Source of the DNA: Psittacicella melopsittaci | GTDB taxonomy: Bacteria; Pseudomonadota; Gammaproteobacteria; Enterobacterales; Psittacicellaceae | Assembly: GCF_003585925.1 (NCBI RefSeq) | Contig: NZ_NRJH01000001.1 | Location: 1 to 55,712, forward strand | DNA length: 55,712 nucleotides | Direction: 5' to 3' | In this document: positions 3,721 to 28,779 of the stretch, piece after piece | How positions within the stretch are numbered: position 1 is the stretch's first letter | Layout of the letters: each line of letters starts with the position of its first letter | Notes under the pieces: generated by a model | The model's input: the letters and a program-made list of their open reading frames with translations, nothing else | Told to the model about the DNA's origin: nothing | Database searches by the model: none | Position numbers and translations under genes: made by a program

Positions 3721-3781
3721 ACTCTCAATAAACAACTTTCTCTAAGCCTCACTCTTCTTAGTGAGGATAAGAGAGGAGCAC

Positions 3782-9795: not shown

Positions 9796-12700
9796 TGTTT
9801 AAAAGTACTTGGCAAACTCTCACAGGTACCTTGCCTCATACTTGGGATGAGGCAAGGGCAACCTTGTTTATTCTCCCTGAACAGCTTCCCCTTGAAAGGC
9901 AACTGCCTAAAATTATTGCTGCTGTGCTCGTTACTTGTTCTTTTTCTTTAAGGGTTTACCTCAAGCAAGAGCAACGCCAAGCCGTTTATGCTTATTTAAG
10001 TTGCTATTACTCAAGTCAGGCTTTTAGGGTACAAGGGAACCTCAAGGATCTAACTTGGTATCAACTTTTAACCCCCGAGCAAGTGCTTTGTAGAGTAGGA
10101 GAGCAAGAGTTAGAGAATAGCTTTGATAGCTCGGAGCAAGTAATTTGTTTAGCCGAACAACTTGCAAGTTTTAAGCAGATTCCAGCTAAGCTAGTAGTTT
10201 TTGTTAGAAAGCAAGAACTTGTACAAGTGCAAGAACTCCTAAGCGCACAAGGCATGCCTTTTAGAGTAGAAAACTGGGACGCCAGAGAAGCTAATCGCTT
10301 TTGGCAAGAGGTATATGCTCAACAAGCCAATCTCCTTGGCTACAAAGCAAAACAACTTCTTGCCCAAGTGAGTGAAGCTCAACCTGGCTATTTACTTCCT
10401 GCTTATTTACCTCTGGGACAAGAGTATTTACCCGCGGTTCCTGCTCAACTTGAACTTCTTGCCTTACCTAGCTGGGGACAAATGCGAGCTTTGCGTTTTA
10501 ATCTCTTGCCAAGTTTTAATTTAGCGACTTTAGCTCCCAGTGAACTAGCTCTTGCCCATCAAACGCTAGGCAACCTCTTGGCATTAGAGTATAACCAGCA
10601 AGTGGTCAATCTCTATTGCTATAGCTCAGTGCCAACGCAGGAAACAAGGCAAGATAAGCCTGAGCAAGAAAGGCAAGGTGAAGGAGAAAGGAAAATAAAA
10701 GCAGAGCTCAAACTCGAACCCCAAGAAAAAACCGAGCTCAAACTCGAACCCCAAGAAAAAACCGAGTTTGAACTTGAACCTAAAGGAAAAACTGAACTCA
10801 AACTCGAACCGCAAGAAAAAACTGACTTCGAACTCGAACCCCAAGAAAAAACAGAACTCAAACTAAATAACTCAAGCGAGCCTGAGCTCGAACAAGTAAA
10901 CAACCCAAAACTCAAGGCACCAAGCCAATCCCAAGTACAAGCTGAACCTCTAACAACGAACCCAAGCCAAGGCAAGACTTTTGCTGGCAAAGCGCAATTG
11001 TCGGAGCAAGATCCTCGTGTCCAACTTTTATTGCAAATAAAACAGCAAACTTGGCTAGGGCATCAACAAGCCCATTGGCAACAGGTTTACCAAGTATTGG
11101 AAAGATGGCAACAACAGCAAAGCAATAAACTCATAATAACCGCTCGAGTGCCTGATCTCCTAGACCTTACCATCTGGCAAGAGTTGCCTCTAGACTTTGT
11201 CCCGCAGCAACTCAAACTACATTGGTGGCAAGGGCAATTACTTCTCCCTGAGCAAGAGGAGCAAGATTGGTTACATCCTCAAGCCCCAGCTCGCACTTGG
11301 CACTGGCATCTCAGTCAAGAACTCTATTTAGATACTTTAGTAACTCAGTTGCTCACCGATTATGCTCAAGAGCTAGTTCCCTTGCTTTTAGCTGAACTAT
11401 ATCAGAGTCAAGAGCAAGCCTATTTAAAAACTCTCAGCTCTTGCTTAGCTCCACAAAACCTTGCTCAGGTTTTTTCGCATCAAGAAGAGTTGAGCCAAGA
11501 GCTTTGGCAAACGCCTTTGTTTTATGTAAATTGGGGCACGAGCATTGGGCAAAGAGTGGTTAACTATTTAAAAGCGCATGGCATTGCTTATCAGGATTTA
11601 GCTTTAGATTTTAGTTTACAACGCAAAAACTGGCCAGAGTACTCGACCCTAAGTAAAGACAAGACAGAGCAAGATCATTTATCTTCGCCCCTAGCCTGTC
11701 CATATACTCAGCACGAACTGCAAAACTCTCTTAGTGCCACTTGCTTCATGCCCCAACTCTGGCAACAACTTGAATCTAGTCATCTCGTACCCGCTTGGGG
11801 ACAAGTCGAAGTCTACTTACCAAGTGCAAGTTTATTAGCCTTGTTTCCCGAGTTATTAGCAGCTTGCCCTTATCCTCAACTTGCACAAAACTTTATTGCT
11901 GTGTGGGATAGGTTCAAGCAACTGCTTAAACAACAAGCTTGGCAACAAGACTTTGCCCAACAATTGCAATCTCAGGCTACTTGGGTTGTACTTGGCAAAA
12001 CGCCTTGGCTCAGTACCACTTGGCAACAGCATTTTCTTGCAGATTCCCAGCGTGCCCACAAGAACTTGCAGTTAAGTTCTGCCTATAACCAAGAGTTTGC
12101 CCTCTTGGGCTTAGAGTTATTAGAGCTTTTTCACAAAGTAAAACCACAGCTTTACAGCCCAGCCAAAGTAAACCTAGCCCAAGCTCTTGCTTATGAGCCT
12201 CTCGAGTTGTTTAATTTGGCTTTAGCCCAGTTACTCCAAGGGAAAAAAGCATCTCAATCTTCTTCAGGACAAGTAAGCTGGCAAGAGGTAATTAACCAAC
12301 TCGAACAAGGAATTAGTTTACCTTGCAAGCAAGGCAAATACACCAGCTATGCTCTTTCCCATTGTTCCCCTGAGCTAATGGCAGGTAAAACTATTCTCTA
12401 TCAAGAGGACTTTTTTACTAGTACTGCCTCAGTGCCTTTAACGCCATTACCTAGTTTAGTGTTACGCTGGCTAGACTTTAAGCTGGCGCATAGCTATCCG
12501 CAATACTTTCCTCAGTATATTCATCTCAGTCAGGTTGCTAGTTCCTTTGAGGTAAAGTACAGAGCTTGGCAAGCTCCGCTTGCCATGCTCCAACAAAGCC
12601 AACATCTTTGGCAACTAGCAAGGATAAAGCATTTTAGTCTCGAGCAGGTTAAGCCCAGTTTTATTACTTGGGTACATCTTATACAAAAACTGCAAGAGCT

Positions 12701-15700
12701 AGGGCGCGATCCTTGGCAAGCTCAACTTTTACTAAGTGCTTTAGAGCAAGAGAAAAGAGTTTGTTCTTGGTCGGCATGGGGACAAAAGTTCTTTGCCAAA
12801 CCAGAGACTGAAAGTTTAGAACAAAAGTTGTTGTTTTATTTAATGCAATATCTTGAGGCTATTTTTCCCAGTAACTTTACAAGTTGGTTGGAAAACTACT
12901 GTAATGAACTGACAATTGCTTGGCAAAAGCAAGATATAACCTTGACCTTTACGAGCCCAAGCTTGCCCGAGCCTAACCAAAACACTATGCCCTTTACGCA
13001 ACGGCATACTTGGCAAGAGCAACGCAAAGCTTGGGCACGTGAGCAAAGCCAACAAGTTTTACGCCAGTTACTTGATTGGGATAAGGTCTTTAATAGTGCT
13101 CAACTTTGCCAAGCTTGGCAAAAAGAACAAGTAAGGCAAGATATAGACCTCAAGGCTTGGCAAGCATGGCAAGGTACGCAGTTATATGCTCAGCTTGCTC
13201 CCTTGAACATAGATCTGTTAGCTTGGCAACAACTTTATCAAGACTTTTTTCTCTATCGCAAGCTTTTACTGCGTTTTCTTAAAGCCAAGCAAATTAGCTT
13301 AGCTCGGGGAGAGCATCTAGCTTGTTTAAGTTGGCAAGATAGCCACAGCCAACTACTTTCTTTACCTTGTCAATGGCTCGTCTACGATCCGCAAAAACTC
13401 GAACCCTTTGCTTATTGTGCCGAGCAACAACTTTGCCCCCAGCAAATTTGGGCATACTTTCTTTGGTGGCAAAGAAAGCGAGCTAAGTTAGAGCAAGATT
13501 GGAGTTTAAGAGAGCAAGCTCCTCGTGCTTTTGTGCAACAAGAGTTAGGCATCTACTCTCTTTCTCAGATTCATGCTCAGCTAACCCAAAGCTATTATCG
13601 CCGGGTACATCACCGCAGTAAAAGTCTAGCTCGAAGTTTTTTTACTAGTAAAAACTGGGTGGATTATCTGTACCAACAAAATAATTTAGCTAGCTTGCCT
13701 GTAAGTCAACTCTATCCTGAACATGACTTTGCTCAAGTTAGTAAGTACTTTACTAAGGAACCTGAACAAGGTTCACTTTGGCAAAGGTATGCAGGAATTG
13801 CCGAACACCTTGCTCAAGCTCCTCAAGTTCAACACCAAGTAGCAGGGATAAAGGACAACTTTCTCTGGTGGGCTTGGCAAGAACGTAATTACGCTAAGCT
13901 AGCTTGGCTTAACCCACAAAAGCTTCGCACCAACTTTGTGAGTTGCTTAGTTAAAGTCCAAGCCGAGCAACTAAAACAAGAACCTTTGCTAAGGCAAGAG
14001 CTAGAAGCTCAGTTCCTTACTCCACAAGCTTTACCTCGTCTTCTCAGTTTTACAGCCATTCAATGGCAGTATAAATACGCATTATTAAAAATTCATCACG
14101 AGCGTAATTTACTTCCTCTTGAGGTTTTACAACCTCACTATGACCGTTTAGTTGCAAACTATGGCTTGGGTTCAGAACCTAGCTTGATTGCACAAATTCG
14201 TACGGGCTTAAGTCGGGAAGGGTTACGTTGGTATAAGCAAGAGCAAACTCTAGCCGAAGCTGATTTAGAGCGAAGCAAAACTCCAGCCGAGACTGATTTT
14301 ATGCGTGCTCAAACCACAGCCGAAGCTGATTTAATGCAAGCTCAAACTCCAGCCGAAGCTGATTTAGTGCGTAGCAAAACCCCAGCCGAAGTTGATTTAG
14401 TGCGTAGCAAAACCACAGCCGAGGTTGATTTAGTGCGTAGCAAAACCCCAGCCGAAGTTGATTTAGTGCGTAGCAAAACCACAGCCGAAGTTGATTTAGT
14501 GCGTAGCAAAACCACAGCCGAGGTTGATTTGGAGCAAGGTAAAACTCCAGCCGAAGCTGATTTGGAGCGTAGCAAAACCACAGCCGAAGCTGATTTGGAG
14601 CGTAGCAAAACTCTAGCCGAGACTGATTTAATGCGTGCTCAAACTCTAGCCGAGGTTGATTTAGTGCGTAGTAAAACCACAGCCGAGGTTGATTTAATGC
14701 GTAGCAAAACCTCAGCCGAAGCTGATTTGGAGCGTAGCAAAACTCTAGCCGAGACTGGTTTAATGCAAGCACAAACTCCAGCCGAAGTTGATTTGGAGCA
14801 AGGCAAAACCACAGCTGAAGATAATTTGGAGCGTGTTCAAACCACAGCCGAAGTTGATTTAATGCGTAGCAAAACCACAGCCGAAACTGATTCAGTGCGT
14901 GCTCAAACCACAGCCGAAGCAGATTTAATGCAAGCTCAAACTCCAGCTGAATCTGATTTAGAGCAAAGCAAAACTCCAGCCGAAGTTAATTTAGAGCAAG
15001 TCAAAACCACAGCCGAAGGTGATTTAGAGCGTAGCAAAACTCCAGCCGAAGTTGGTTTAGTGCAAGCTAAAACTCCAGCCGAGGTTAATTTGGAGCGTAG
15101 CAAAACCCCAGCCGAAGCTGATTTAGTGCAAGCTCTAACCCCAGCCGAAGCTAATTTGGAGCAAGACAAAAACTCAGCCGAAGCTAATTTAATGCGTGCT
15201 CAAACCACAGCCGAAGTTTATTTGGAGCAAAGCAAAACCCCAGCCGAAGATAATTTAGAGCGTAGCAGAACCCCAGCCGAAGCTAATTTAATGCGTAGCA
15301 AAACCACAGCCGAGACTGATTCAGTGCGTGCTCAAACCACAGCCGAAGCTGATTTAGAGCGTAGCAAAACCACAGTAGAGGTTGATTCAGTGCGTGCTCA
15401 AACTCCAGCCGAAGCTGATTCAGTGCGTAGCAAAACTCCAGCAGAAGCAGATTTAGAGCAAGCTAAAACCACAGCCCAAGCTAATTTCGAGCCTGACAAA
15501 ACCTCAGCCTCAACAAATTTACCTCTTTCTTCTCAATCTCATAAAACAACCAAGCTAGCAGAACCTCGGCAAGGCTTTTGGCAAAGAGTTCTCCTCAAAG
15601 CAAAAAGCCTCTTCCCCCAAAAAGTAAAAGCTAGCTATCCTACTTCTACGCCAATAGAGCCCAGAGCTCTAGCTCATTATTGGTATGACTTGCGTGAAGA

Positions 15701-16835
15701 TACTTATCTTACTTATTTACGTTTACAAGAACTAACGCCAGTCAAACAAATAAAGCTAGAGTTGGATTTAACTAATGACACTTCCCCTTGGCAATTACAA
15801 AACTCACAAGGCTTAGTTACCAGTTTAGCTTGCTTGCAAGTAAAAGAAGATCTTACCGAAGAGCAAGCCATAGCTCAAGCCTTTGCTCATATTTATAGTC
15901 CAGCTCAGATTCTTGCAAGCCAAGGTATTAGCCAAGAGCAGGTTCCAGCTCGCACCCCTGTCAGCTTAATTAGCCAAGATCTCTTAGCCTCAGGAGTTTA
16001 TCTCGAACAAGTACAAACTCTCGAGCCTGAGAACTTGTCTCTGGCTAATACTTATTTAGAGCAAGAGCAAGAAGTATTAGCACCAGATTGGTTTTTTACG
16101 CAAATGGGAAGTGCTTTGCCAGAGCATGCAACTAATTGTCCCCCTGGTATTTACCTCAATGCTTTTGAGGGGAAACAAATAGCTTACAGCTATTTGTTTG
16201 GTCAAGCTTGTTACTCTATGCAGTTTGGTTATGAGAATAAGCATTTTATGCAAGCTTTGGCAGATGCTTATATAGATCCTCAGCTGGTGCAAACAAATTT
16301 TTGGGGAAAAGAGCAACAAGAGTACTTGCAAGTGCTTACGCCAGAAAAAGATCCGCAAGAGAGTTTTGCTTTTTATCCCCAAAGAGCAAGTCAAACGCGA
16401 GCCATGTATCAAGTGCAGGCTCAGGCATTAACTTCTGAAGTTAAAGTCCCCTTAAAAAGCGAACTGCCTTTGAGTGTAGACATGCACTTTGCTCGCTATC
16501 GCGTCAGCCATTTAGATTTGCATCTTGCCAAACAAAAACCTGAGCTCGAAGTTAATCAGCTCATGAGTAGAGCAAGGTTCTATTATCTCTTTTGGACTGA
16601 TTTGCTCCCTCGCTTAAAAAACTATCATGCTTGTTTGGTGGGAAATATGGACTGGCAGTTTTTTGCTCCAAGTTCGGCACAACAACTTTCCCAGCTCTAT
16701 ATGTCCACCTACAGTGTGTATCATCTCAGTGCTGAGCAAGCAGAGCTTGCCCAGCAGTTAAGTCAAACTAGTCAAGCTTATGCTCAGTACTATTACCACT
16801 GGCGCTTAAGTCAAGTATTAGTACAACGCGAATAA
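9795..16835 (+). CDS. Giant 2346-aa Trp/Gln-rich protein of unknown function in the tra operon
   Basis: I do not recognise this protein. No signal peptide, transmembrane segment or Walker A motif is visible, so it is probably cytoplasmic. Layout: an N-terminal domain (1-270); an acidic low-complexity linker with five 10-aa repeats (304-353); a long helical, Trp- and Gln-rich middle (about 400-1480); thirty-eight 11-aa repeats (1485-1902); and a C-terminal domain (about 1940-2346). The gene overlaps the traG stop by one base (TAATG) and is followed by a gene with a good AAGGAGG, so it is co-expressed with the secretion machinery. Its place between traG and the coupling protein is where F has traS/traT. 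Options are a DNA-processing scaffold, a secreted substrate, or a structural cargo. Codon and residue usage (high Gln, Leu, Ala) resemble the neighbouring unknown genes. Confidence 0.75.
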   Translation: MFKSTWQTLTGTLPHTWDEARATLFILPEQLPLERQLPKIIAAVLVTCSFSLRVYLKQEQRQAVYAYLSCYYSSQAFRVQGNLKDLTWYQLLTPEQVLCRVGEQELENSFDSSEQVICLAEQLASFKQIPAKLVVFVRKQELVQVQELLSAQGMPFRVENWDAREANRFWQEVYAQQANLLGYKAKQLLAQVSEAQPGYLLPAYLPLGQEYLPAVPAQLELLALPSWGQMRALRFNLLPSFNLATLAPSELALAHQTLGNLLALEYNQQVVNLYCYSSVPTQETRQDKPEQERQGEGERKIKAELKLEPQEKTELKLEPQEKTEFELEPKGKTELKLEPQEKTDFELEPQEKTELKLNNSSEPELEQVNNPKLKAPSQSQVQAEPLTTNPSQGKTFAGKAQLSEQDPRVQLLLQIKQQTWLGHQQAHWQQVYQVLERWQQQQSNKLIITARVPDLLDLTIWQELPLDFVPQQLKLHWWQGQLLLPEQEEQDWLHPQAPARTWHWHLSQELYLDTLVTQLLTDYAQELVPLLLAELYQSQEQAYLKTLSSCLAPQNLAQVFSHQEELSQELWQTPLFYVNWGTSIGQRVVNYLKAHGIAYQDLALDFSLQRKNWPEYSTLSKDKTEQDHLSSPLACPYTQHELQNSLSATCFMPQLWQQLESSHLVPAWGQVEVYLPSASLLALFPELLAACPYPQLAQNFIAVWDRFKQLLKQQAWQQDFAQQLQSQATWVVLGKTPWLSTTWQQHFLADSQRAHKNLQLSSAYNQEFALLGLELLELFHKVKPQLYSPAKVNLAQALAYEPLELFNLALAQLLQGKKASQSSSGQVSWQEVINQLEQGISLPCKQGKYTSYALSHCSPELMAGKTILYQEDFFTSTASVPLTPLPSLVLRWLDFKLAHSYPQYFPQYIHLSQVASSFEVKYRAWQAPLAMLQQSQHLWQLARIKHFSLEQVKPSFITWVHLIQKLQELGRDPWQAQLLLSALEQEKRVCSWSAWGQKFFAKPETESLEQKLLFYLMQYLEAIFPSNFTSWLENYCNELTIAWQKQDITLTFTSPSLPEPNQNTMPFTQRHTWQEQRKAWAREQSQQVLRQLLDWDKVFNSAQLCQAWQKEQVRQDIDLKAWQAWQGTQLYAQLAPLNIDLLAWQQLYQDFFLYRKLLLRFLKAKQISLARGEHLACLSWQDSHSQLLSLPCQWLVYDPQKLEPFAYCAEQQLCPQQIWAYFLWWQRKRAKLEQDWSLREQAPRAFVQQELGIYSLSQIHAQLTQSYYRRVHHRSKSLARSFFTSKNWVDYLYQQNNLASLPVSQLYPEHDFAQVSKYFTKEPEQGSLWQRYAGIAEHLAQAPQVQHQVAGIKDNFLWWAWQERNYAKLAWLNPQKLRTNFVSCLVKVQAEQLKQEPLLRQELEAQFLTPQALPRLLSFTAIQWQYKYALLKIHHERNLLPLEVLQPHYDRLVANYGLGSEPSLIAQIRTGLSREGLRWYKQEQTLAEADLERSKTPAETDFMRAQTTAEADLMQAQTPAEADLVRSKTPAEVDLVRSKTTAEVDLVRSKTPAEVDLVRSKTTAEVDLVRSKTTAEVDLEQGKTPAEADLERSKTTAEADLERSKTLAETDLMRAQTLAEVDLVRSKTTAEVDLMRSKTSAEADLERSKTLAETGLMQAQTPAEVDLEQGKTTAEDNLERVQTTAEVDLMRSKTTAETDSVRAQTTAEADLMQAQTPAESDLEQSKTPAEVNLEQVKTTAEGDLERSKTPAEVGLVQAKTPAEVNLERSKTPAEADLVQALTPAEANLEQDKNSAEANLMRAQTTAEVYLEQSKTPAEDNLERSRTPAEANLMRSKTTAETDSVRAQTTAEADLERSKTTVEVDSVRAQTPAEADSVRSKTPAEADLEQAKTTAQANFEPDKTSASTNLPLSSQSHKTTKLAEPRQGFWQRVLLKAKSLFPQKVKASYPTSTPIEPRALAHYWYDLREDTYLTYLRLQELTPVKQIKLELDLTNDTSPWQLQNSQGLVTSLACLQVKEDLTEEQAIAQAFAHIYSPAQILASQGISQEQVPARTPVSLISQDLLASGVYLEQVQTLEPENLSLANTYLEQEQEVLAPDWFFTQMGSALPEHATNCPPGIYLNAFEGKQIAYSYLFGQACYSMQFGYENKHFMQALADAYIDPQLVQTNFWGKEQQEYLQVLTPEKDPQESFAFYPQRASQTRAMYQVQAQALTSEVKVPLKSELPLSVDMHFARYRVSHLDLHLAKQKPELEVNQLMSRARFYYLFWTDLLPRLKNYHACLVGNMDWQFFAPSSAQQLSQLYMSTYSVYHLSAEQAELAQQLSQTSQAYAQYYYHWRLSQVLVQRE
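10704..10853 (+). repeat. Five 30-bp in-frame repeats (10 aa, consensus ELKLEPQEKT)
   Basis: Five consecutive 30-bp units encode ELKLEPQEKT with small variations (EFELEPKGKT, DFELEPQEKT). A partial sixth unit follows. They form a highly charged, probably disordered linker between the N-terminal and middle domains of the 2346-aa protein. Near-identical DNA suggests recent slippage expansion. Confidence 0.9.
14247..15500 (+). repeat. Thirty-eight in-phase 33-bp repeats (11 aa, consensus TPAEADLxRSK)
   Basis: The 1254-bp stretch divides exactly into 38 units of 33 bp with no insertion or deletion. Each unit encodes T-(P/T/L)-A-E-(A/V/T)-D-(L/S)-(V/E/M)-(R/Q)-(S/A)-K. An 11-residue period is the hendecad period of right-handed or straight coiled coils, and it resembles the 11-mers of group 3 LEA proteins. 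The units are mixtures of a few variants in shuffled order, as expected from unequal exchange. Confidence 0.95.
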
Positions 16836-16845
16836 GGAGGTTTCC

Positions 16846-18003
16846 TTGAGTGAGAAAAATATTTATCTCGATTTCTTTGCTTTAGATAATTTAGCCTTAC
16901 ACAATCCTGATTATCTGGACAGTAAAAGGTTATATGCCGTATCTGCCTTACATTTGCAAAAGGTAGTTGCCAAACCTCTTGAAGCTTTACGTCGCACCAT
17001 GGCTCTAGAAGCGGTGATCGAAGTAAGCTTGCTAGATTCGATGCTCTTACGAGCACAAAGGTTTTTCTATACTTTACCTTATGCGGAAAAAGGAGAGTTT
17101 GCTCATACTTTAGGGGCATATCAATTTTTTCTCTATTCTAGTGAAAAAGGATTTGGGCATTATCTTGCTAATGCCCCTAAAGTAACTCAAGCTCGTACGG
17201 TAATTGAACGCTTTGCTAATGGCATTCTTTTTGTAGCTGCTAATTTAATTACTCTGGCCTTAGAAATGAGTCGCAAGGTTAGTTTGAGTTATAACCAAAA
17301 AAGCTATAGCGAGTTTGGTGTGGATTTACAAACTTGGGTTGAGGACTTTAACTTACAAAGCAAGTTAACCTCTTATATTCCTCTAAGCTGGCATCAGCCT
17401 AATGATTTAAGCAAGGGAGAACTAACCCAAAAATTCAAAGTATTTAAAGACGCTTTATTTCCTCCTGGCTTACAAAGTTATTTAACTTGCATCTACCCAA
17501 ATTGGGAAAAAGCCTTGTTTGCGATATGCTCCCAGCAAGGAACTGACTTGTTGCAAACAAGTTTAGAGTATGGACGCAAGGCTGCTATGCAAATTTGTCA
17601 AACGCAATTGCGTCCGCAAGAGTTAAGAAAAATCTTTAAAGAAAGTCAGCAATTATTTGCAGCTAACTCTTACGCTCTAGGACAAGAAATAGTAAGACAA
17701 GCTAGTCAGTTGCATGGCAATCAACACCTTGCCTGCTATTTACAACAAAAAGTGGCTTTTTGGCAATTGCATTTAGCTTCACGTAACCTCAAGCATCAAG
17801 AGGTCATAGACCTCTTGCGTTGGGGCTGGGTAGCTGACTATTTAGATTTGCATTGGCAAGAGCTCAGTGGTTTGGCTCTCAAACAAATGCTCCAAAAACT
17901 GTGCCAAGAGTATAAGCAAATGGATGCCACTAAAAGTCAAGCGAAAAAGCAGTATATGAGTAAAGCTGGTACCCATGCCTCTTACTCTTGTATCGATGAT
18001 TAA
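16846..18003 (+). CDS. Degenerate MOBH relaxase-like protein (TraI_2 fold, catalytic residues missing)
   Basis: It starts at TTG 16846, supported by a strong AAGGAGG 6 bp upstream. Residues 44-93 follow the pattern of MOBH (SXT/R391 TraI) relaxases: PLEALRR, a helical stretch, LLRAQRFFYTLPYAEKGEF, then AHTLGAY, matching the family LPASE...H-x-L region. But the family's HHH and GG motif is absent. Further on, ERFANGILFVAANLITLA sits where relaxases have the ALLHDxGK motif, which is also lost. The segment with YSEFGVDLQTWVEDF and YIPLSWH then resembles the WNPxxxSLxxW and YxxxW parts. The similarity was judged by eye and is weak. The gene lies just upstream of the traD-DUF4400 pair that normally accompanies a MOBH traI. 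If correct, the protein keeps a DNA- or partner-binding role without strand transfer. Confidence 0.4.
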   Translation: MSEKNIYLDFFALDNLALHNPDYLDSKRLYAVSALHLQKVVAKPLEALRRTMALEAVIEVSLLDSMLLRAQRFFYTLPYAEKGEFAHTLGAYQFFLYSSEKGFGHYLANAPKVTQARTVIERFANGILFVAANLITLALEMSRKVSLSYNQKSYSEFGVDLQTWVEDFNLQSKLTSYIPLSWHQPNDLSKGELTQKFKVFKDALFPPGLQSYLTCIYPNWEKALFAICSQQGTDLLQTSLEYGRKAAMQICQTQLRPQELRKIFKESQQLFAANSYALGQEIVRQASQLHGNQHLACYLQQKVAFWQLHLASRNLKHQEVIDLLRWGWVADYLDLHWQELSGLALKQMLQKLCQEYKQMDATKSQAKKQYMSKAGTHASYSCIDD

Positions 18004-18020: not shown

Positions 18021-19781
18021 ATGGCAAAGAAAAAAGAGAAGTACTCTTATACCCCAATAGGGCTAGAGCTTTTATATGATGAAGTGCTAGAAGGGGAAGG
18101 GAAGGCAGAGTTAGAGCAAAGAGGACAAGACACAGAAAAAGAGACAAGGGCGAGACAAGCAGAGGTAAACTCTAGCCAGAGTCAAGCTCAAGGAGGTTCT
18201 CAAGAGCAAGAAAAGTCTTGCTCCAATGCAAGCTCAAACTCTAGCCAGAGTGCTCAAGAGCAAGAAAAAGCTTGCTCAAGTGCGAGCTTAAACTCTGCTA
18301 AGAACTTAGAAGAACAAACCCTTGCTAAGCAAGAGATTGTCGAAGCTCAAGCTGAAGAGGCAAATGAGTTCTGGCAAGAAATGCTCACTGATATACCGCA
18401 GTATACCAGCCAACAGCTAGAAGAGATGTTTGCTTATTACCAAGGCTATGAGGGAGAAATGATTCCTGAGTATGGAGAGCTAGAACCGCCACCTGAGTGG
18501 GTAGAGCAAGAACTTGCTGTAACTCCTGAAGATATTGCCTATTACGAAAACTATTGTCAAAGTGTTAATTTTGCTCAAGAGGAACTCGAAGCCTATTGGC
18601 AAGGGCAAGAAGTAGGATCGTCTTATTTTGTAGCCGAGTTAGAGGCAGGGAGTGAAGCTGAATTAGAGTTTGGGAGAGAGCCTGAGTTAGAGTTTGGGTG
18701 CGAGCCTGAGTTAGAGTCTGGACGAGGTTCGGAGTTAGGGGCTGGACGAGGTTCGGAGTTAGAGTCTGGACAAGGTTCGGAGTTGGAGTCTGTATCTGCT
18801 TTTAAGGGAGATTCTGATTTAGCCTCAGGATCTGCTCTTAGAGAAGATTGCGTAGAGTCTAGGCATGATCTTGGTGCTGATTCTGGAGTTAGACCAGTTG
18901 CTAGTCCACTAGACGAGCAAGCTCAACTTAAAACAAAAAGCACCACTCCCATTTGGAAAAAAGCTCAAGCTTTAGTGCACGAACAAATAGATAAAGAGCA
19001 GGCTCGGGAACATATTCAAGCTCGTATTCAAGCCAATAATCAAGTTGCTCTGACAAGTTTAGAGAACCTACCCGAAGCTGATAAAGAAAAAGAGTGGTTT
19101 GAGGATTTAGAGCAAAACATTGAAAGCATGGCACAACGCTATCAAGATGAGCAGGTCAGTGATCTAATTGCTTATTTAGCACAACAACCGAGCAAACCAC
19201 CTCCTGCCAGTCAGACCTCTTATCAAACAAATGTTCCTCTGAGTCCCAAAGAACGAAATATTTTAGCTTGGCGACAAAAGAAAGACCAGCTCTATCAACA
19301 CCAACTTGAAACTAGTAAAAGATTGCAACGTCGTCCTTTGCTAAATCGCATTCATGCTTTATCTAACCTCAGCGAGTTAATGCATATGTGCGGTGATCCT
19401 GCTATTTTAAGTCACAACTTTAAATTACGCAGTAAGTATCTTTTACATCTGGTACAGCAAGGCTCTTTTGCTCCTGCTAAGTTTATGGCACAAAACAAAT
19501 CTTTGTTTTTGGCAAATATGGTCAAGCAACTGGCAACTTGGCAGCAAGTAGCCCCGCATTGGCAAGGACAAGAGGATCCTGCTTGGCAATTATTTGCTCA
19601 GGCACAACAAGTGGATTTTGTTGACTGTGATTTTACTGAAGTAGATTTAGATTTAATCGCTTCTCTATACCAAAAGAAAAACTCTAATCTTTGGCAAGAG
19701 CAAGCAGCCCGTTTGGTGTTGCAATGGCAACTTTTTGAAAAGTTTGCTGCTCTAGCAAAAAATAAAGCTCAGGAGAGTTAG
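18021..19781 (+). CDS. Hypothetical protein with acidic repeat linker, tra operon
   Basis: I do not recognise this 586-aa protein. There is no signal peptide or membrane segment. The N-terminal 120 residues are Ser/Gln/Glu-rich low complexity with two copies of an SSQSxxQEQEKxCSxAS-like block. Residues about 125-205 are acidic and Tyr/Glu-rich. An 8-aa repeat follows (212-259). The C-terminal third (about 405-586) is basic and helical, with SPKERNILAWRQKKDQLYQH and PLLNRIHALSNLSELMHMC, and looks like a folded domain. GAGGAG lies 9-14 bp before the ATG at 18021. It could be an accessory relaxosome protein or the separated C-terminal part of a relaxase, but nothing in the sequence proves it. 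Confidence 0.7.
   Translation: MAKKKEKYSYTPIGLELLYDEVLEGEGKAELEQRGQDTEKETRARQAEVNSSQSQAQGGSQEQEKSCSNASSNSSQSAQEQEKACSSASLNSAKNLEEQTLAKQEIVEAQAEEANEFWQEMLTDIPQYTSQQLEEMFAYYQGYEGEMIPEYGELEPPPEWVEQELAVTPEDIAYYENYCQSVNFAQEELEAYWQGQEVGSSYFVAELEAGSEAELEFGREPELEFGCEPELESGRGSELGAGRGSELESGQGSELESVSAFKGDSDLASGSALREDCVESRHDLGADSGVRPVASPLDEQAQLKTKSTTPIWKKAQALVHEQIDKEQAREHIQARIQANNQVALTSLENLPEADKEKEWFEDLEQNIESMAQRYQDEQVSDLIAYLAQQPSKPPPASQTSYQTNVPLSPKERNILAWRQKKDQLYQHQLETSKRLQRRPLLNRIHALSNLSELMHMCGDPAILSHNFKLRSKYLLHLVQQGSFAPAKFMAQNKSLFLANMVKQLATWQQVAPHWQGQEDPAWQLFAQAQQVDFVDCDFTEVDLDLIASLYQKKNSNLWQEQAARLVLQWQLFEKFAALAKNKAQES
18654..18797 (+). repeat. Six 24-bp in-frame repeats (8 aa, GSELESGR-like)
   Basis: Six units of 24 bp encode EAELEFGR, EPELEFGC, EPELESGR, GSELGAGR, GSELESGQ and GSELESVS. 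The units are in phase and form an acidic linker between the two halves of the 586-aa protein. Confidence 0.85.
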
Positions 19782-19783: not shown

Positions 19784-20758
19784 ATGTATGACGATGATGA
19801 AGATCTAGACCAACCTAATGCCCTCAAATCTTTATTGGATTTGTATGATGTAATGCGGGTAAGGTGGCAAAAAGAAAACCCTGGTGTGCATATTCCCACA
19901 CGCCAAGAGTTTGTGGAAAAAATGAATCGTGGGGAAACTATTACTTGGCAAACTCCAGAACCGCCAACTAAATCTCCTCCAGTAAAAAAAGCTAGTAAAA
20001 AGGGGCAACCAGTTAAAGCTTATCAAGAGCTTTCGCAAGTAAGACTCGATGAACTTTTTTATAGTTTTGAGCAAATGCCTGAGTCAAGTATGGTAAAGGG
20101 AATAAACCAAGACAGCAGTTGTCGCCGCATCAATAACTTGCGTAAAAAGGTTAGTGACAATATGACCCCACCCGCACAAGAACCAGCAGTAAAAAACCTC
20201 GCTCGTTATGATTTTGCTCGCTTAGGGCAAGAATTGTGTCATAGTCCTGAAGGACGAGCTGTACAACAAAACTTGGTAGAGCAACAATTGCATTTAAAGA
20301 GTCAGGACTTTTTACTGCTCGAGATAATGTCGGTGTTATATGACTTTAGTGTAAAACAGCTCGAACAGGATTTTTCTCCCACCAAGCTCGAAAGTTATTT
20401 ACAGCAGTATGGTTTAGTGCATGGCGAACAAAACACCAGTGTTTTTTTAGGGCAAGGGGCTTTTGTTCCTTTACGAGCAAGTGGCTATACTGGGGCTGTT
20501 AAATCTGAAACTAAAGCCCGAGCGAGCCTTGATTATCAAGCTTTGCTTGATTATTTAGCCGAGCACTTACATCCCGATACTTGGGCGTATTTGCAACTTA
20601 GTCAAGTTGAACGCTATTTAGTGCAATTGCTTTATCAACCCCAACATAGTTTGCAATATGATGCCCAAGCTCAGCAAATAAACTATAGCTATTTTTTAGA
20701 TTTGCCCATTTTGCATCTGCTCGTGGAAATCTATGGTCAACGCGAGGAACATTTATGA
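19784..20758 (+). CDS. Hypothetical protein upstream of the coupling ATPase
   Basis: I do not recognise this 324-aa protein. There is no signal peptide or membrane segment. The N-terminal 110 residues are charged and Pro/Lys-rich, probably disordered. From about residue 135 the protein becomes helical, including LARYDFARLGQELCHSPEGR, QDFLLLEIMSVLYDFSVKQL and a Trp/Leu-rich C-terminus. It starts 2 bp after the previous stop and overlaps the coupling-protein gene by ATGA (20755-20758), so the two are translationally coupled and may act together. A role as an adaptor presenting substrate or the relaxase-like protein to TraD is an inference from position only. Confidence 0.7.
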   Translation: MYDDDEDLDQPNALKSLLDLYDVMRVRWQKENPGVHIPTRQEFVEKMNRGETITWQTPEPPTKSPPVKKASKKGQPVKAYQELSQVRLDELFYSFEQMPESSMVKGINQDSSCRRINNLRKKVSDNMTPPAQEPAVKNLARYDFARLGQELCHSPEGRAVQQNLVEQQLHLKSQDFLLLEIMSVLYDFSVKQLEQDFSPTKLESYLQQYGLVHGEQNTSVFLGQGAFVPLRASGYTGAVKSETKARASLDYQALLDYLAEHLHPDTWAYLQLSQVERYLVQLLYQPQHSLQYDAQAQQINYSYFLDLPILHLLVEIYGQREEHL

Positions 20759-22626
20759 AAAAATATTTATATTGTCAGTGTGGACTAGATTACTTTTTTC
20801 CGCAAACTTGGCAAAAGTATTTGTTGGCAAGGTACGCCAAAGAAGATGTGTCTATTCATTGGCGCGAAAACTATGAGCAGTTATTAGTTAACCTTGCCTT
20901 GGGACTAGGTGTAGGTTATTGGGGCTTGGGGTGTATTTTGGCTTTGTTTAACTACTTGCCAGGCAGTTGGGTAAGTTTGTTTTTTGCGTTGGCTTGTTTT
21001 TGTTTGAGTTTAAGTCTTTATCCCCAAGCCTTATTTAATCGGCAATGGCTCGAACAAAGATACACGCGTCCTCTGTTACTAACTAACTCTCTTGCTTTAC
21101 AGCAAGAGTTAGATCCGCAAAAATGGTGGTTGGGCAAGGGCTTTTACTGGGATGCACGGCATAGTTTTAAACAGCAAGCTATTCAACAAAAGTACAAGCT
21201 TTCCCAACACCAAAGTTATATTTCAAGTTCGCGCATGGGGTCATCTTGGTTACATGCTCTAGAGCATCAAGAACACAACCTCTATCTCGATTGTGAGCAT
21301 ACGAATGGTCATATGCTCATAGTTGGAACCACAGGTTCGGGCAAAACTCGGGCATTTGATTTGTTGATTCAGCAAGCGATTATGCGTCAAGAAAGTGTAA
21401 TAATTATCGATCCTAAAGGAGATCACGATTTACGCCAAAAGGCTTTGCATACATCCTATCGCATGAACTTGGCTACGCGTTTTTTAGCTTTTAGTCCTGC
21501 TTTTGCCCAACAAAGTATTGCTCTGGATTTATTGAGTAACTATGCTAAAACTTCGGATCTTGCCCAACGCATAATTTCTTTAATGCCCAACTCGGCTCAT
21601 GCTGCTCCGTTTAAGGCTGTTTCTTATCAGACAGTGCTAACAGTAATTGATGCCTTAACCCTACTCAATCACAAGATAACCCTTGCTAAAATTTATCTGA
21701 GTCTAACCGTGGGCTTAAAAGATCTAGTTATTCAAGTAATGCTTTATGCCTGTAAAACCTATGACATTCCGCAGTATCTTGAAATTCTTGCCCAAGAAAA
21801 CCTTGATACTCGTGCCTTAAAAAATGTCCTGCGTGCCTACATAAAAAACTATCATCCTTTAGTTAAGCAAGAAGCGATTTTGAATTTAATTGAGTTATAT
21901 AATCATGACTCTACTCATCTTGGGAAAATGCTTGCCACTTTACTGCCTGGGTTACAAGTTCTAGCTACTCCACCCATGAATGAGTTAATTACCCCCGAAC
22001 TTGAAGTAAGTGGGCAAAGAATGGTGTTTAATCTCCAGAGTTTAACCAGTACTAACTATATTCTCTATATTGGCCTCGACAGTTTGTCAGATGCCACTTT
22101 ATCGGGCAATATTGGTAGTTTACTTCTTTCGGATTTAGCCGCTTTAGCAGGTTCAATATACAACTACAAGGATATTAAAAAGCCGATTAACATTTTTATT
22201 GATGAGGCAGGTGAGGTAGTAAATGACGCCTTTATTCAAATTCTCAATAAAGGTAGGGGAGCAGGCTTGCGCTGTTTTACTGCCACCCAAACTATAGCTG
22301 ATTTTAATGTGCGGATCGGAGATAAAGAAAAAACCCGACAAATGCTAGGAAACTTTAATAACTGGTTGGCTTTGCGGACTACCGATTTTGAGACACAAAA
22401 ATACCTTGCTCAATCTTTACGTCAAACGCGCGTAACCGTAAAACAAAGTAACTATATGCAGCATGATGCCTTTACTAATAACTCTTATAGTGATGCTCTC
22501 AACCATGAAAGTACCCTTTTAGTGACGCCAGATATTCTTGCTGAGTTACCAAATTTTGAGTACATAGCTCGAGTAGCGGGGGGACAGGTTATTAAAGGGC
22601 GTTTACCTATAGTAACCGAGGAGTGA
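20755..22626 (+). CDS. traD: TraD, type IV coupling ATPase (SXT/MOBH type)
   Basis: Coupling proteins are inner-membrane hexameric ATPases that deliver the substrate (relaxase-DNA or protein) to the type IV channel. Hydrophobic segments lie at residues about 43-85. Walker A is GTTGSGKT at 191-198, followed by the family-typical IIIDPKGDHDLRQKAL; Walker B is IFIDEAGEVV with D483/E484; GRGAGLRCFTATQTIADF is the downstream sensor-like stretch. At 623 aa it matches SXT-type TraD, whose GTTGVGKTR and FDPKGD motifs are nearly the same. Unlike the relaxase-like gene upstream, all ATPase motifs look intact, so the channel is probably energised. It overlaps the previous gene by 4 bases and is followed by a DUF4400-like gene, the SXT traD-s043 arrangement. 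Confidence 0.88.
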   Translation: MKKYLYCQCGLDYFFPQTWQKYLLARYAKEDVSIHWRENYEQLLVNLALGLGVGYWGLGCILALFNYLPGSWVSLFFALACFCLSLSLYPQALFNRQWLEQRYTRPLLLTNSLALQQELDPQKWWLGKGFYWDARHSFKQQAIQQKYKLSQHQSYISSSRMGSSWLHALEHQEHNLYLDCEHTNGHMLIVGTTGSGKTRAFDLLIQQAIMRQESVIIIDPKGDHDLRQKALHTSYRMNLATRFLAFSPAFAQQSIALDLLSNYAKTSDLAQRIISLMPNSAHAAPFKAVSYQTVLTVIDALTLLNHKITLAKIYLSLTVGLKDLVIQVMLYACKTYDIPQYLEILAQENLDTRALKNVLRAYIKNYHPLVKQEAILNLIELYNHDSTHLGKMLATLLPGLQVLATPPMNELITPELEVSGQRMVFNLQSLTSTNYILYIGLDSLSDATLSGNIGSLLLSDLAALAGSIYNYKDIKKPINIFIDEAGEVVNDAFIQILNKGRGAGLRCFTATQTIADFNVRIGDKEKTRQMLGNFNNWLALRTTDFETQKYLAQSLRQTRVTVKQSNYMQHDAFTNNSYSDALNHESTLLVTPDILAELPNFEYIARVAGGQVIKGRLPIVTEE

Positions 22627-22628
22627 GT

Positions 22629-23255
22629 ATGAGATATTTTTATCGTTTTCTCTTAGTTTTATTTTTGAGTAGTATGTTGGGCTTGTTTGTTTATGGTTTT
22701 TTAGCACTCAATCGTCAGCATCTAATTGAGGCAATAGTTCTAGCCTTTGCTAGGCACGGACCTGCACTACAAGAGTTTGCTAATTTAGTTGCCCAAGGAG
22801 ATATAGAACCCTTGCCTAATTGGCAACTTTGGGGAGTAGAAGCTGATCCGCGTCCTTGGTCACAAAGATTGCAAGAAGGGCGTTGGCAAGAAAATCGCAT
22901 TCACGAGTTTATGCTAACTTTAGATTTATACTTGATTCTCTTAAAACAGAGAGCTTGGAGTTTTTTACCTATATTGCTTTTAAGTTTACCGCTAATTGGC
23001 TTGCTCTTTTACTGCTTACGCATTAAACGTTTAATTCAACAAGACTATTTAGTTTACACTTCGCCATTGCAAAAAGGGATATATGTTTATGCTCTGGGAG
23101 CTAGTAGTTGGTTGTGGATGTTTCTTTTTGCTTTGCCTTATCCGCTTAGTCTTACTTATATAGGGGGAAGTTATTTACTGGTAGTGGTTTTAACTTACAA
23201 GGTAAGACAAATTGTTCAGGTGTCGGTACGGCAAAATGCTTTAACGGTTAATTAA
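22629..23255 (+). CDS. DUF4400-like integrating-conjugative-element membrane protein
   Basis: The ATG at 22629 is preferred to the GTG at 22623 because GAGGAG (22618-22623) lies 5 bp before it and overlaps the GTG. The 208-aa product has a hydrophobic N-terminal segment (about 5-27), a pair of segments near 112-136, and C-terminal segments near 156-195 with the pattern YVYALGASSWLWMFLFALPY then GGSYLLVVVL. This is the architecture of DUF4400 proteins, which sit directly after traD in SXT-type elements; their function is unknown but linked to the coupling protein. It is the last gene of the operon. Sequence similarity was judged from the hydrophobic pattern and context. Confidence 0.6.
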   Translation: MRYFYRFLLVLFLSSMLGLFVYGFLALNRQHLIEAIVLAFARHGPALQEFANLVAQGDIEPLPNWQLWGVEADPRPWSQRLQEGRWQENRIHEFMLTLDLYLILLKQRAWSFLPILLLSLPLIGLLFYCLRIKRLIQQDYLVYTSPLQKGIYVYALGASSWLWMFLFALPYPLSLTYIGGSYLLVVVLTYKVRQIVQVSVRQNALTVN

Positions 23256-23805: not shown

Positions 23806-24099
23806 CTAATTTAAATAATTAACCTTAAATAATTCCCCATAATTTTGAGCTATGAAAAAAATGTCAGTGGTAATGGAAAAGCAGTAATGGCAATATTTGC
23901 ATCGCCATTGATGACGACTAGCGTTAAAATAATCATTATGACATTTTTGACAACGAGTACAAATAACATGATGAAGATTATCACTTTGTTGCGAACGTTC
24001 TTTGATTAGCATTTTCAAAATATCAATATCAGACATCTCACTCACTTGTGCAATAGACAAGTGGCGAGCGTTTGCTGATAAAAGAAAATGCTGTGCCAT
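23806..24099 (-). pseudogene. IS1595-family transposase, N-terminal fragment
   Basis: The 97-residue product begins MAQHFLLSANARHLSIAQV and contains a zinc ribbon (CTRCQKCHNDYF then WRCKYCHYCFSITTDIFF), the hallmark N-terminus of IS1595-type transposases. The reading frame then runs into unrelated AT-rich sequence and stops, so the DDE catalytic domain is missing. It is similar in layout to, but clearly diverged from, the transposase gene at 27399, so the two are different elements. It points left, away from the restriction gene. Confidence 0.75.
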
Positions 24100-24379: not shown

Positions 24380-26962
24380 TTAAGTTGTTAAATCACCTAA
24401 CTCTTTCACAACTTCTTGAATTTGACTAACAGCTTGCCATTTGCTATCCATTGCATTTTTAATTTTATTTGAGATCTCTAAAATTTTATTCCTATCATTA
24501 TGTATAGGCAATTTTAATTCTTTCCAACGATCAGCTATATTAGGTAAAGTAGTTTCTATTAATATTTTATTTTTAGCTTGTTCTTGTGTGATCCAATGAC
24601 TTAATAAATATAATAAATAATAAGGTGTTATTCCATATTTATTATTAGGTAGAACTCTTAAAACTAAAATTTCACGAGTTAATAAAACTTCTGTATCAAA
24701 AGGAGATATCATTGCAACACTTCCAATCCTATAGCTACCTCTCCTCACATATAATATATCGCATTCATGTAATGTTTTTTGCTCACTAAAAATTTCTTTA
24801 TATGTGTTATATGGAATTTTTGATGTTGGGTCTTTATAAACTTCCCAATTCACTATATCTTTTACACGAATATATGGAATATCTCCTTTTCCTTTATTTT
24901 CAGATTCAGGTGAACCATGTCCATCAAAATGTTTTATAACTTTTGATGAAATTAATTCTTGAATAGAAATTAAAGATATTCCTTTTTTATCAGCATAAGT
25001 TTCTAATTCTTTTGTTTTTTCTTTCCAGTAATATCGAGGTACATATACTTTTGTTTTTTTTACAATACTAGAATCTACTAAAAAAGAATATCTAATATTA
25101 TCACTAAATTCTTCATTATTGACAAAGGTAGTCCAATTACCCCCTTTACCTTTTAATTCTTTCAGTTCATTAATTTCACTGTTTATGATCTTTATATCAT
25201 CCCAAAGTTCATTTGTAGACTTATGATTGGTATAATCCCATCTAAAAATCTCTTTACCTTGATGATCATGCCCCATTTCTTCAGCTACACACATTAATAT
25301 TTTATCTTGCTGTTTTGTGTTTTTTTCAAGAAATACAGCAATACATTTAGCATTATTATGAGGTCTAAATGTATTATGAGGTAAATCAATTAAGCAAAAT
25401 ATATTATGTTTTGCCAGAAACTCCATTACATATTGAGCTCTTGGAGCATGAAAGTAGGTTTCAGGAATAATCAGCCCCATTCTTCCCCCATCAATAAGCA
25501 AATCCAAACATCTTTCAATAAAGAGAATTTGCGGAGGCATCTCTGTATTTAATTTATTTGTTTCAATATAATAATTACCATTCTTTTTCCACTTTTTAGC
25601 TAGCTTATATTGTTCTAGTTTTTCTCTTCCTTTAATTTTTATATCTTTTCCAAACGGCGGATTAGCGAGTAAACAGTCAAAAGAATTTAAATGTATACTT
25701 TGTTGAGTTTTTATACACCAATGAGACGGTAATTCAAGACTATCTTCACAAAAAATACCTCCTTTTCCATCTCCTAATATTGCCATATATGCTTTAGAAA
25801 CTTTAGCTAATAATGAATCTTTTTCTATTCCATGAACTAATGTCATTGCTGTTTTTTGTTTTTCTTCATTAAGAGCTAAGTTATTCCATCCTAAATATTT
25901 TGCATCTTCCTCTAATAGATTCCATAAATAACGTAGTGATTCAACAAGAAACCCACCTGAACCACAAGCTGGATCAATGACTTTTTCATCAATACCTTGA
26001 TTCAAAATATTAACCATCAATTTAATCACATTTCGAGGAGTAAAGAATTGTCCCTGAGGACCTTTTAAAGCATAACCAATAAAGGTTTCAAAAGCATCAG
26101 CAACAACATCTCTTTCAGCATCAATTAAACAATAGTTTTGTAATTGCCCAACAACATAATATAAAGAATGATCATCTAAAGTTATTTTATCATTCGTATC
26201 AAAAACTTCTTTATATTTTGATTTTACTGATTGAAATAATTCATTAATTCTATAGGCAACATCTTTTTCTGATTCATTTACCCCCGCTCTAAATTTAACA
26301 ACTTCATTGGGAGGAGTAAATTTTTCATCATAAATTTTTGTAAATATAATATTAATTAATTGTTTTGCTAATTCTTCATCTCTAGTTGTTCCAATAGCAT
26401 TACCAGCTAAATGATTACGTAATGAATTAAAAATAGCTTTTAAATTATGCGGAACAATTAAATCTTTTCTTTTATATAACCCAATATCTTCTAATCTTTC
26501 TCCTCTTTTAGGTATATTAGGAATCTGTTTAAATACTAATCCATTTTCAGTTATTATTTTTTGCAAATAAACGGGGGTATCTTTTCCATTATACCAAACA
26601 CCTAATTCAGCAGATGACAGAGTCAAATAGTCTTTTAGCTGGGATATCCCTTCCTTTATCATAGATTGTTTACATTCAACTATAATATAAAGCTCATTCT
26701 CTTTTTTTTCTGATGTTTTAAAGACTGCAATATCAATGGGGAAGCTACCACTAGTATCTGATGGGGATTTTTTTACAAAAAATTGAGGTCTGGTAATAAT
26801 TTGAGATTTCTCATAATTATAATCATTTACTAGAATTTGAGAAAATGGTTGGGTAGCCTGAATTTCTTCAGGTGTGCTTTTAATATAGATGTTAGAAATA
26901 TAATCTAAAATATAACCTTCTCTTGATTCTACTATTTCAGAAGATATAGATTGTTGGCTCAT
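24380..26962 (-). CDS. Single-chain restriction-modification enzyme (HsdR-N nuclease, N6-adenine methylase, HsdS-like specificity)
   Basis: This 860-aa protein combines three activities, as in type IIG or BcgI-like and fused type I enzymes. Residues about 20-130 resemble the HSDR_N_2 domain, with a PD-(D/E)xK nuclease pattern: PIDIAVF then IIVECKQ. The central part is an N6-adenine methylase: motif I DPACGSGGF (from D330) and motif IV ANPPFG (from N434), with LKGPQGQFFTPRNVIKLMV just before. From about residue 600 an HsdS-like target-recognition region follows, including IPYIRVKDIVNW and a final coiled helix. The frame is intact. Base composition is clearly more AT-rich than the tra genes, a sign of transfer. 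An XRE-type regulator lies upstream in the same direction, suggesting controlled expression. No separate helicase-type HsdR is seen. Confidence 0.85.
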   Translation of the reverse strand: MSQQSISSEIVESREGYILDYISNIYIKSTPEEIQATQPFSQILVNDYNYEKSQIITRPQFFVKKSPSDTSGSFPIDIAVFKTSEKKENELYIIVECKQSMIKEGISQLKDYLTLSSAELGVWYNGKDTPVYLQKIITENGLVFKQIPNIPKRGERLEDIGLYKRKDLIVPHNLKAIFNSLRNHLAGNAIGTTRDEELAKQLINIIFTKIYDEKFTPPNEVVKFRAGVNESEKDVAYRINELFQSVKSKYKEVFDTNDKITLDDHSLYYVVGQLQNYCLIDAERDVVADAFETFIGYALKGPQGQFFTPRNVIKLMVNILNQGIDEKVIDPACGSGGFLVESLRYLWNLLEEDAKYLGWNNLALNEEKQKTAMTLVHGIEKDSLLAKVSKAYMAILGDGKGGIFCEDSLELPSHWCIKTQQSIHLNSFDCLLANPPFGKDIKIKGREKLEQYKLAKKWKKNGNYYIETNKLNTEMPPQILFIERCLDLLIDGGRMGLIIPETYFHAPRAQYVMEFLAKHNIFCLIDLPHNTFRPHNNAKCIAVFLEKNTKQQDKILMCVAEEMGHDHQGKEIFRWDYTNHKSTNELWDDIKIINSEINELKELKGKGGNWTTFVNNEEFSDNIRYSFLVDSSIVKKTKVYVPRYYWKEKTKELETYADKKGISLISIQELISSKVIKHFDGHGSPESENKGKGDIPYIRVKDIVNWEVYKDPTSKIPYNTYKEIFSEQKTLHECDILYVRRGSYRIGSVAMISPFDTEVLLTREILVLRVLPNNKYGITPYYLLYLLSHWITQEQAKNKILIETTLPNIADRWKELKLPIHNDRNKILEISNKIKNAMDSKWQAVSQIQEVVKELGDLTT

Positions 26963-27075
26963 TTTTATCCTTTTTGATTAAATATAAAATAATATTTATT
27001 GTTTTTCTGAAATTTCTTTAAAAGAAATTGAAAAAGCATCTTTTAATTTTTTAGGCATCAAACGATAGTCTGTAA

Positions 27076-27351
27076 TCAATTTTTTTCTTGCCCTGTAATC
27101 GAACTTTCTAGCATTGCTGTCTGAAACATCAATCCATTTCTAGAGAGCAACCAAGTTACATTTACAGAAAGTCCTTTATGAATTTTTATTAAAGCCTCCT
27201 CGTTTGGATCTCTTCCTTCTTTTAAGTAATTCATTGCTGAACGATAAGAAATTCCAGTCACGTTAGAAAATTCAGTAACAGCCATATTCTTAACTTCTAA
27301 CACCTGTTTTAAACGATCACATATGCACATTATTTCATATTCATATAGCAT
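27076..27351 (-). CDS. XRE-family HTH regulator upstream of the restriction enzyme, probably 3' frameshifted
   Basis: The 91-aa product carries a helix-turn-helix of Cro/CI type: RLKQVLEVKNMAVTEFSNVT then YRSAMNYLKEGRDPNEEAL and KIHKGLSVNVTWLLSRNG, the usual phage-repressor-like motif. It precedes the restriction gene in the same direction (113 bp away) and may control it, like C proteins of R-M systems. The start is the first ATG, with an in-frame alternative 7 codons later. After the A7 tract (T7 on the plus strand, 27080-27086) the protein stops. One base more would extend it to 26996 with LITDYRLMPKKLKDAFSISF, which fits the usual C-terminal DNYRALP-type tail of such regulators. The gene is probably slightly truncated by a homopolymer frameshift. 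Confidence 0.75.
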   Translation of the reverse strand: MLYEYEIMCICDRLKQVLEVKNMAVTEFSNVTGISYRSAMNYLKEGRDPNEEALIKIHKGLSVNVTWLLSRNGLMFQTAMLESSITGQEKN

Positions 27352-27398
27352 ATAAAAGTTTATTCATATTTTAATTTGGTTAGGGTAAAACTGCAATT

Positions 27399-28298: not shown

Positions 28299-28311
28299 GT
28301 GTAAAGTTTAT

Positions 28312-28687
28312 TTAATCGCCCAAAAGCCCTACCGCAATTCTGAACTCCCCTTGTTTTTTAATCCTATATAAAATTCGTTTTGTTGCTTGATAGTGCTTAT
28401 CTCCCACATCTACAAAGATAGACAGTCCTTGCGAATTAAGCACCTTTTTCGCGATTTCTTCACACATCATCCAATGTTCATGTTGTCGTAAAACTTGTGC
28501 TATTAGTCTTGAAGTAATCAGGCGAGAGGTTTTAGCTGTTTTGTCGTTATCATTAGGGATGAAATAAGAAAGTAAAGTATCTACTTCCTTGTTTAAAACA
28601 TTCATTTGCTCCACATTATTTCTTGCTTTTTTTTTGTATCTTGATTAAACTTGCTATTAACTCGGTTTTGTTGAGCTTTTGTGCCAT
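28312..28687 (-). pseudogene. Small unknown protein gene with a frameshift in an A9 tract
   Basis: From the ATG at 28687 the minus strand reads MAQKLNKTELIASLIKIQKK and then stops shortly after a run of nine A (T9 at 28627-28635 on the plus strand). With eight A the frame would continue through NNVEQMNVLNKEVDTLLSY to the stop at 28312, giving a 124-aa protein. The downstream part is open for 100 codons from a GTG at 28614. The C-terminal half (WMMCEEIAKKVLNSQG, YQATKRILYRIKKQGEF) looks like a small winged-helix fold; I do not recognise the family. It may be decayed, or switched on and off by slippage. It overlaps no other gene and lies between the transposase and the cytosine methylase. Confidence 0.6.
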
Positions 28688-28689
28688 AA

Positions 28690-28728: not shown

Positions 28729-28779
28729 ACAAAATTTAATGGAGTGAGTTACCTTAGCTAAAGTGTGGAACTAATATAT

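Follow-up and report, generated by a model that had tools for sequence, protein, structure and literature searches.

A predicted MOBH-relaxase-type protein without its catalytic motifs in the F-type secretion gene cluster of Psittacicella

The window analyzed here, a whole contig of 55,712 nucleotides from the bird bacterium Psittacicella melopsittaci (NZ_NRJH01000001.1, assembly GCF_003585925.1, a draft of 99 contigs that is about 91% complete), carries at positions 285-23255 half of an F-type type IV secretion system (T4SS). One of its genes encodes a protein of 385 residues, p385, which is predicted from profile comparison and structural models to be a MOBH-relaxase-type domain (TraI_2, HD fold) lacking both catalytic motifs. 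The best explanation, which we regard as evenly poised between right and wrong, is that p385 acts as a non-catalytic docking adaptor for the coupling ATPase TraD in an F-type system no longer sending relaxase-nicked DNA. Comparisons within the genus cover four draft genomes, namely that of the window, G001, G002 (P. gerlachiana), and G003, each of about 99-300 contigs and 86-92% complete. The features of the gene are as follows.

16846-18003, plus strand: p385, predicted TraI_2/HD-fold protein without the HHH and HD motifs
17092-17100, plus strand: GEF, residues 83-85 of p385, at the three-histidine (3H) columns, a placing that depends on alignment A6
17236-17259, plus strand: AANLITLA, residues 131-138 of p385, at the place of HDxGK

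The first-pass annotation of this DNA had read the loss of both MOBH motifs from p385 alone, and the loss extends to all four orthologues. In alignment A6, the 3H columns are occupied by GEF in the window protein, GDY in P0002, GVF in P0003, and GEF in L085, and the HD columns by IT (I135-T136), LT, VS, and LM, respectively. The SXT alignment places the HD columns of the four orthologues one residue further on, where TL (T136-L137 in the window protein), TL, SQ, and MT are found and again no HD. Across the four orthologues, 66 residues are invariant, including the acidic D9, E59, and D331, with H87 as the sole invariant histidine. According to the accessible text of PMC12857230, the only MOBH relaxase that has been characterized at the molecular level needs both motifs in order to cleave. 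Judged by sequence, p385 would have lost the metal site and, with it, the ability to nick DNA through the known MOBH mechanism.

Library scans gave no useful Pfam or NCBIfam match for p385, and the curated Pfam TraI_2 model, which the annotation had suggested for a check, did not list it at E≤1 (window protein) or E≤5 (four orthologues), whereas a broad TraI_2 profile of our own did match. The profiles, which were built from PF07514-positive loci of two genome sets, were compared with the p385 family (four orthologues) and with 16 further families of Psittacicella. The broad profile scored 33.0 against p385 (P=0.0012), with 150 columns aligned along a single diagonal; the second-best family reached 17.5, and none of 200 shuffles attained the p385 score. 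Three narrower profiles also ranked p385 first: a 54-locus profile (31.8; reached by 1 of 100 shuffles), a canonical profile (27.8; 1 of 100), and an SXT-type profile (27.0 over 198 columns; 0 of 150). When single open reading frames (ORFs) were tested with the broad profile, three orthologues filled the top four rows among 102 ORFs, one protein appearing twice from overlapping loci. Plain hmmsearch with TraI_2 hidden Markov models (HMMs) over 115 ORFs gave marginal and inconsistent results, and the reverse search with a p385 HMM put the motif-less TraI_2 proteins L071 and L073 at the top of 163, followed by a mixture that included decoys.

The structural check points the same way, as two AlphaFold models place the protein in the TraI_2/HD fold and the best solved match of both, when the models were examined again, is the structure 3kq5 of a Coxiella protein related to TraI_2 in its own right; plain Foldseek with either model returned no match at E≤0.001. 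The p385 profile found no significant relative among solved structures, the broad TraI_2 profile did reach 3kq5, and Phmmer with a canonical MobH gave no significant solved relative. The fold suggested by the annotation is thus upheld as a prediction, resting on models and remote homology. Outside Psittacicella, no relative of p385 emerged from protein database searches (in one of which scoring was confined to the 8000 candidates with the most words in common) or from pattern scans of genome contigs and viral contigs, and its nearest named homologue comes from P. gerlachiana. Genome G059, one of 5 matching genomes among 148, was dropped as a p385 carrier because its match (E=0.002) spans 67 residues with two internal stops.

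The p385 ORF is intact in all four Psittacicella genomes, and between the window and G002 the differences at codon positions follow the order 2<1<3 (0.24, 0.37, and 0.56). Identity among the orthologues is 35-55%, against 72-79% for TraD, 67-79% for TraE, and 72-74% for TraU. Since p324, p210, and the structural TrbC ORF (41-43%) diverge about as fast, and the giant ORF shows even less identity (29-41%), the speed of divergence by itself says little about lost catalysis. The surrounding cluster is composed as follows.

285-3320, plus strand: TraN, library profile match
3761-4939, plus strand: TraF, library profile match
4942-5922, plus strand: 326-residue ORF between traF and traH, weakly TraF-like (33% over 62 residues, 7e-6)
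5923-7269, plus strand: TraH, library profile match
7282-9795, plus strand: TraG (TraG_N), library profile match
9795-16835, plus strand: giant repeat-rich ORF of 2346 residues between traG and p385
18021-19781, plus strand: p586, a low-complexity, poorly conserved ORF of no family
19784-20758, plus strand: p324, an ORF directly before traD, no family assigned
20755-22626, plus strand: TraD, SXT-type coupling ATPase with Walker A and Walker B
22623-23255, plus strand: p210, DUF4400-type protein of 210 residues

The order traG, giant ORF, p385, p586, p324, traD, and DUF4400 gene is kept in all four genomes, with traN-traF-traH upstream of traG in three and the G002 contig beginning at TraG. A second contig carries TraB, TraE, TraC, and an ORF at the TraK position in each genome, followed in three of them by an S26 peptidase, TrbC, and TraU; the G003 contig stops before these. 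With a minimum of five type-specific genes in addition to the ATPase as the threshold for mating-pair-formation type F (MPF_F), the system is assigned to this type on the basis of TraN, TraF, TraH, TraG, TraU, TrbC, TraE, TrbI-domain TraB, and TraC. The 326-residue ORF is possibly a diverged TraF paralogue. The giant ORF holds about 38 copies of a 33-bp unit (an 11-residue repeat) at 14245-15509, shows no known domain except for weak matches driven by the repeats, and has fast-evolving counterparts in all four genomes (2306 residues, 3222 residues, and two ORFs in G002). For p324, only the C-terminal part matches across the four genomes. An Rfam scan of the window gave no matches.

TraD scores 448 bits against an SXT_TraD cut-off of 366 and keeps Walker A at 191 and Walker B at 480, in agreement with the annotation's view of an intact coupling ATPase; it is at most 41% identical to the best 30 of 3545 plasmid records. 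Among 17 families, p210 alone matches DUF4400 (hhalign probability 87, P=3.9e-6). The mobH module, defined by SXT-type TraD plus DUF4400, is therefore present as had been proposed, but p385 is not the immediate neighbor of traD, since p586 and p324 intervene. The order mobH-traD-(orf)-DUF4400 was found in all seven plasmid loci inspected, which were picked from the list of TraD plasmid matches. On account of the SXT-type TraD, the DUF4400 match, and this plasmid order, the Psittacicella module most likely descends from a set of the mobH-traD-DUF4400 type. In the part of PMC4207684 available, Yaa, a small membrane protein, always follows the coupling protein in MOBH systems like that of the gonococcal genetic island (GGI), and Yaa and the DUF4400 proteins may be of the same kind. 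In MOBH relaxases, a disordered middle region separates an HD domain from a globular domain at the C-terminus (PMC12857230, accessible text), and p385 could match the HD domain, with the low-complexity p586 and p324 in the place of the remaining parts. Since hhalign of p385, p586, p324, and the giant ORF against MobH C-termini, with a poor reference alignment, gave no similarity, a relaxase split over p385, p586, and p324 is only a thought.

Searches for another relaxase with PF07514 (TraI_2), PF08751 (TrwC), PF03432 (Relaxase), PF03389 (MobA_MobL), and PF02486 (Rep_trans) found none in the four drafts, MOBC, MOBB, and MOBM not being searched; PF01076 likewise matched nothing in any of the four, although its control gave no signal either. 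No intact relaxase elsewhere in the element, which the annotation had named as a ground for refuting its reading, was seen within these incomplete drafts. The machine would probably move something other than relaxase-cut DNA. In the mechanism proposed here, the ancestor would have been a MOBH relaxase from a mobH-traD-DUF4400 module of the usual kind; p385 would have lost the metal site and nicking, would keep the other task of the relaxase, contact with TraD, and would present protein cargo to the channel. The first candidates for cargo or further adaptors would be the products of three fast-evolving neighboring genes, namely p586, p324, and the giant ORF, and the F-type conjugation system would have been domesticated in Psittacicella. 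The wider claim, that an SXT/GGI-like F-type machine now serves as a resident secretion system free of any relaxase, which would be the first one of type F, with the dead relaxase domain as the receptor handing new protein cargo to TraD, is put forward tentatively, as a possibility with the balance leaning against it.

Several points weigh against the docking-adaptor reading. In the single-ORF test, the G001 orthologue is absent from the best 12 of the 102 ORFs; a degenerate-set profile scored 22.1 against p385, below traN and traB, with 10 of 100 shuffles reaching the score; a P0004-branch profile scored 17.0, below several controls, with 22 of 100; and a profile from the MobH rows of A6 scored 17.5, again below traN and traB. 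These three profile tests, the silence of Pfam and NCBIfam, and a poor first, unbiased AlphaFold model with low predicted local distance difference test (pLDDT) values would suit a p385 unrelated to TraI_2, its likeness reflecting a common helical arrangement; the broad-profile match, the leading rows of the single-ORF test, and the structure match to 3kq5 make this barely credible. The strongest counter-argument is drawn from other motif-less proteins. Querying a database with six MobH proteins yielded 103 proteins of the TraI_2 type; a loose HH..G pattern occurs in 3 of them and HDxG in 2, and one motif-less member lies directly before traD and DUF4400 on the 320-kb Hydrogenophaga plasmid pPBL-H3_B2-1, typed as conjugative, MOBP, and MPF_T. 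In calling a motif-less relaxase next to a coupling protein unusual, the annotation therefore put it too strongly; its observation is confirmed, and its interpretation is plausible, if less singular than stated. If this group drives DNA transfer, p385 might do so as well. The TraI of ICEclc-type elements is likewise not known to carry HHH and HD. A MOBH TraI is the sole relaxase in all but two of the ICEclc-type integrative and conjugative elements, according to the accessible part of PMC10732049. That p385 still processes DNA without a 3H and HD center, as the P0004 branch of this motif-less group may, with the system still exporting or exchanging DNA, is also in keeping with the intact TraD and F-type channel genes and with the GGI, an F-type system with MOBH that exports single-stranded DNA (PMC12857230, in part). 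We nevertheless consider it unlikely, as the residues conserved in the P0004 branch (YP at the HD columns and a GE(G/M)G stretch) are missing from p385 and the p385 family has one invariant histidine. Moreover, since the Hydrogenophaga plasmid is typed MOBP, another relaxase may nick for it, and its motif-less MobH is possibly another non-catalytic one accompanied by a second relaxase.

A related alternative holds that an unrecognized or unassembled relaxase elsewhere nicks the DNA, p385 being an auxiliary relaxosome protein. The fragmentation and incompleteness of the drafts leave space for such a gene, MOBV included, and for a GGI-like system that lacks a relaxase at its own locus, sharing has been offered as the explanation (PMC4207684, in the text available); the five relaxase families are, however, unmatched in four separate drafts, and we judge this alternative quite improbable. 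Still less probable is that p385 is the decaying remnant of a dead mobile element: its fast divergence, the motif loss, the split of the cluster over two contigs, and the insertion sequence (IS) and restriction genes nearby would agree with decay, but the gene is intact in every genome with codon-position constraint, and the T4SS genes and their order are kept.

Compared with known systems, p385 resembles the MOBH relaxases of the SXT/GGI kind (MobH/TraI, PF07514) in its predicted fold, LP-x(4)-G, and the W landmarks, and the Psittacicella cluster shares their TraD-DUF4400 neighborhood and F-type channel. It differs in having no 3H, no HD, and no recognized C-terminal domain, in its length (385 residues, against about 530-1180 in the loci inspected), and in the two ORFs before traD. 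The motif-less P0004 branch (P0004-P0103 and others) likewise has the TraI_2 fold without HHH and HD, and its one member with an inspected neighborhood adjoins traD-DUF4400; its proteins are longer (about 510-690 residues), and the channel on the Hydrogenophaga plasmid is of type MPF_T. Because the residues conserved in this branch, LFSGExG and YPLGK, are absent from p385, membership of p385 in it was rejected. The branch appears to be rare on plasmids, since only 4 of the 1226 plasmid records matching P0004 do so over 80% of its length. In locus L122 (19986-25178), the Hydrogenophaga motif-less MobH, TraD, and DUF4400 stand beside a VirB-type channel.

Stand-alone motif-less TraI_2 proteins of about 450-500 residues (L089-L092) occur in four gammaproteobacterial genomes, and 3kq5 matches one of them at 9.9e-18. 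They adjoin a gene that we take to be apaH-like in all four, with a presumably ksgA-like gene on the other side in three. The Coxiella structure and these proteins share with p385 the lack of motifs, 3kq5 being its closest solved structure, but they stand alone, with no T4SS gene recognized beside them in the inspected stretches. In L093 (8405-10051) and L094 (9023-10621), motif-less TraI_2 proteins of about 530-550 residues are followed by an ORF that looks tyrosine-recombinase-like by eye. T4SSs that lack a relaxase or secrete proteins resemble the Psittacicella system in having a channel and a coupling protein with no relaxase found; in the part of a 2016 survey available, protein-secretion T4SSs are named only within MPF_I and MPF_T (PMC4793230), whereas MPF_F systems without MOB were counted and merely suspected to be protein secretors in 2011 (PMC3158045, in part). 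A literature search, mostly outside subscription journals, gave no title or abstract start on an inactive MOBH relaxase or the Psittacicella case. In several related genomes, the TraD-DUF4400 part has been kept and the relaxase alone lacks its catalytic residues, which could provide a natural test of cargo choice by a coupling protein whose relaxase no longer cuts DNA. The idea, suspected in 2011, that F-type systems can be recruited for non-conjugative use becomes testable in a concrete bird bacterium, and p385 may link other groups of motif-less TraI_2 proteins.

Regarding mobility, tyrosine integrases were found in all four genomes, none on T4SS contigs, in searches that did not include serine recombinases. 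Downstream of the cluster, two genes are common to the window and G002 (76% and 87% identical), which suggests one common site in these two genomes; in G001, the first has a relative on the upstream side of traN, and none was seen in the G003 contig. This pattern fits vertical inheritance, proving neither the mode of inheritance nor a chromosomal place, and the T4SS would appear to be inherited vertically rather than mobile. The two flank genes encode a small membrane protein of 107 residues, SugE-like by eye (30783-31106), and a 228-residue protein (32154-32840; the P. gerlachiana counterpart is 87% identical).

Between the DUF4400 gene and this flank, the window carries at 24380-29916 an N6-methylase with HSDR_N_2, a small helix-turn-helix-like (HTH-like) gene, and a C5 methylase with HTH. 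An SLFN_AlbA_2 gene in G002 and an LlaJI-type restriction gene in G001 occur just after the DUF4400 gene, and the region is likely a hot spot for defense genes. Pieces of an IS1595-type transposase, with zinc ribbon and DDE as separate ORFs, and a zinc-ribbon-like fragment lie at 23806-24099 and 27399-28298. Finally, an open ORF of 6855 residues (35146-55710) runs off the contig end, contains tandem repeats of 132, 399, and 462 bp, and by eye has the look of a giant surface adhesin. Over the first 445 residues, it shares 71% identity with an ORF located at the end of the G002 contig that carries the other half of the T4SS.
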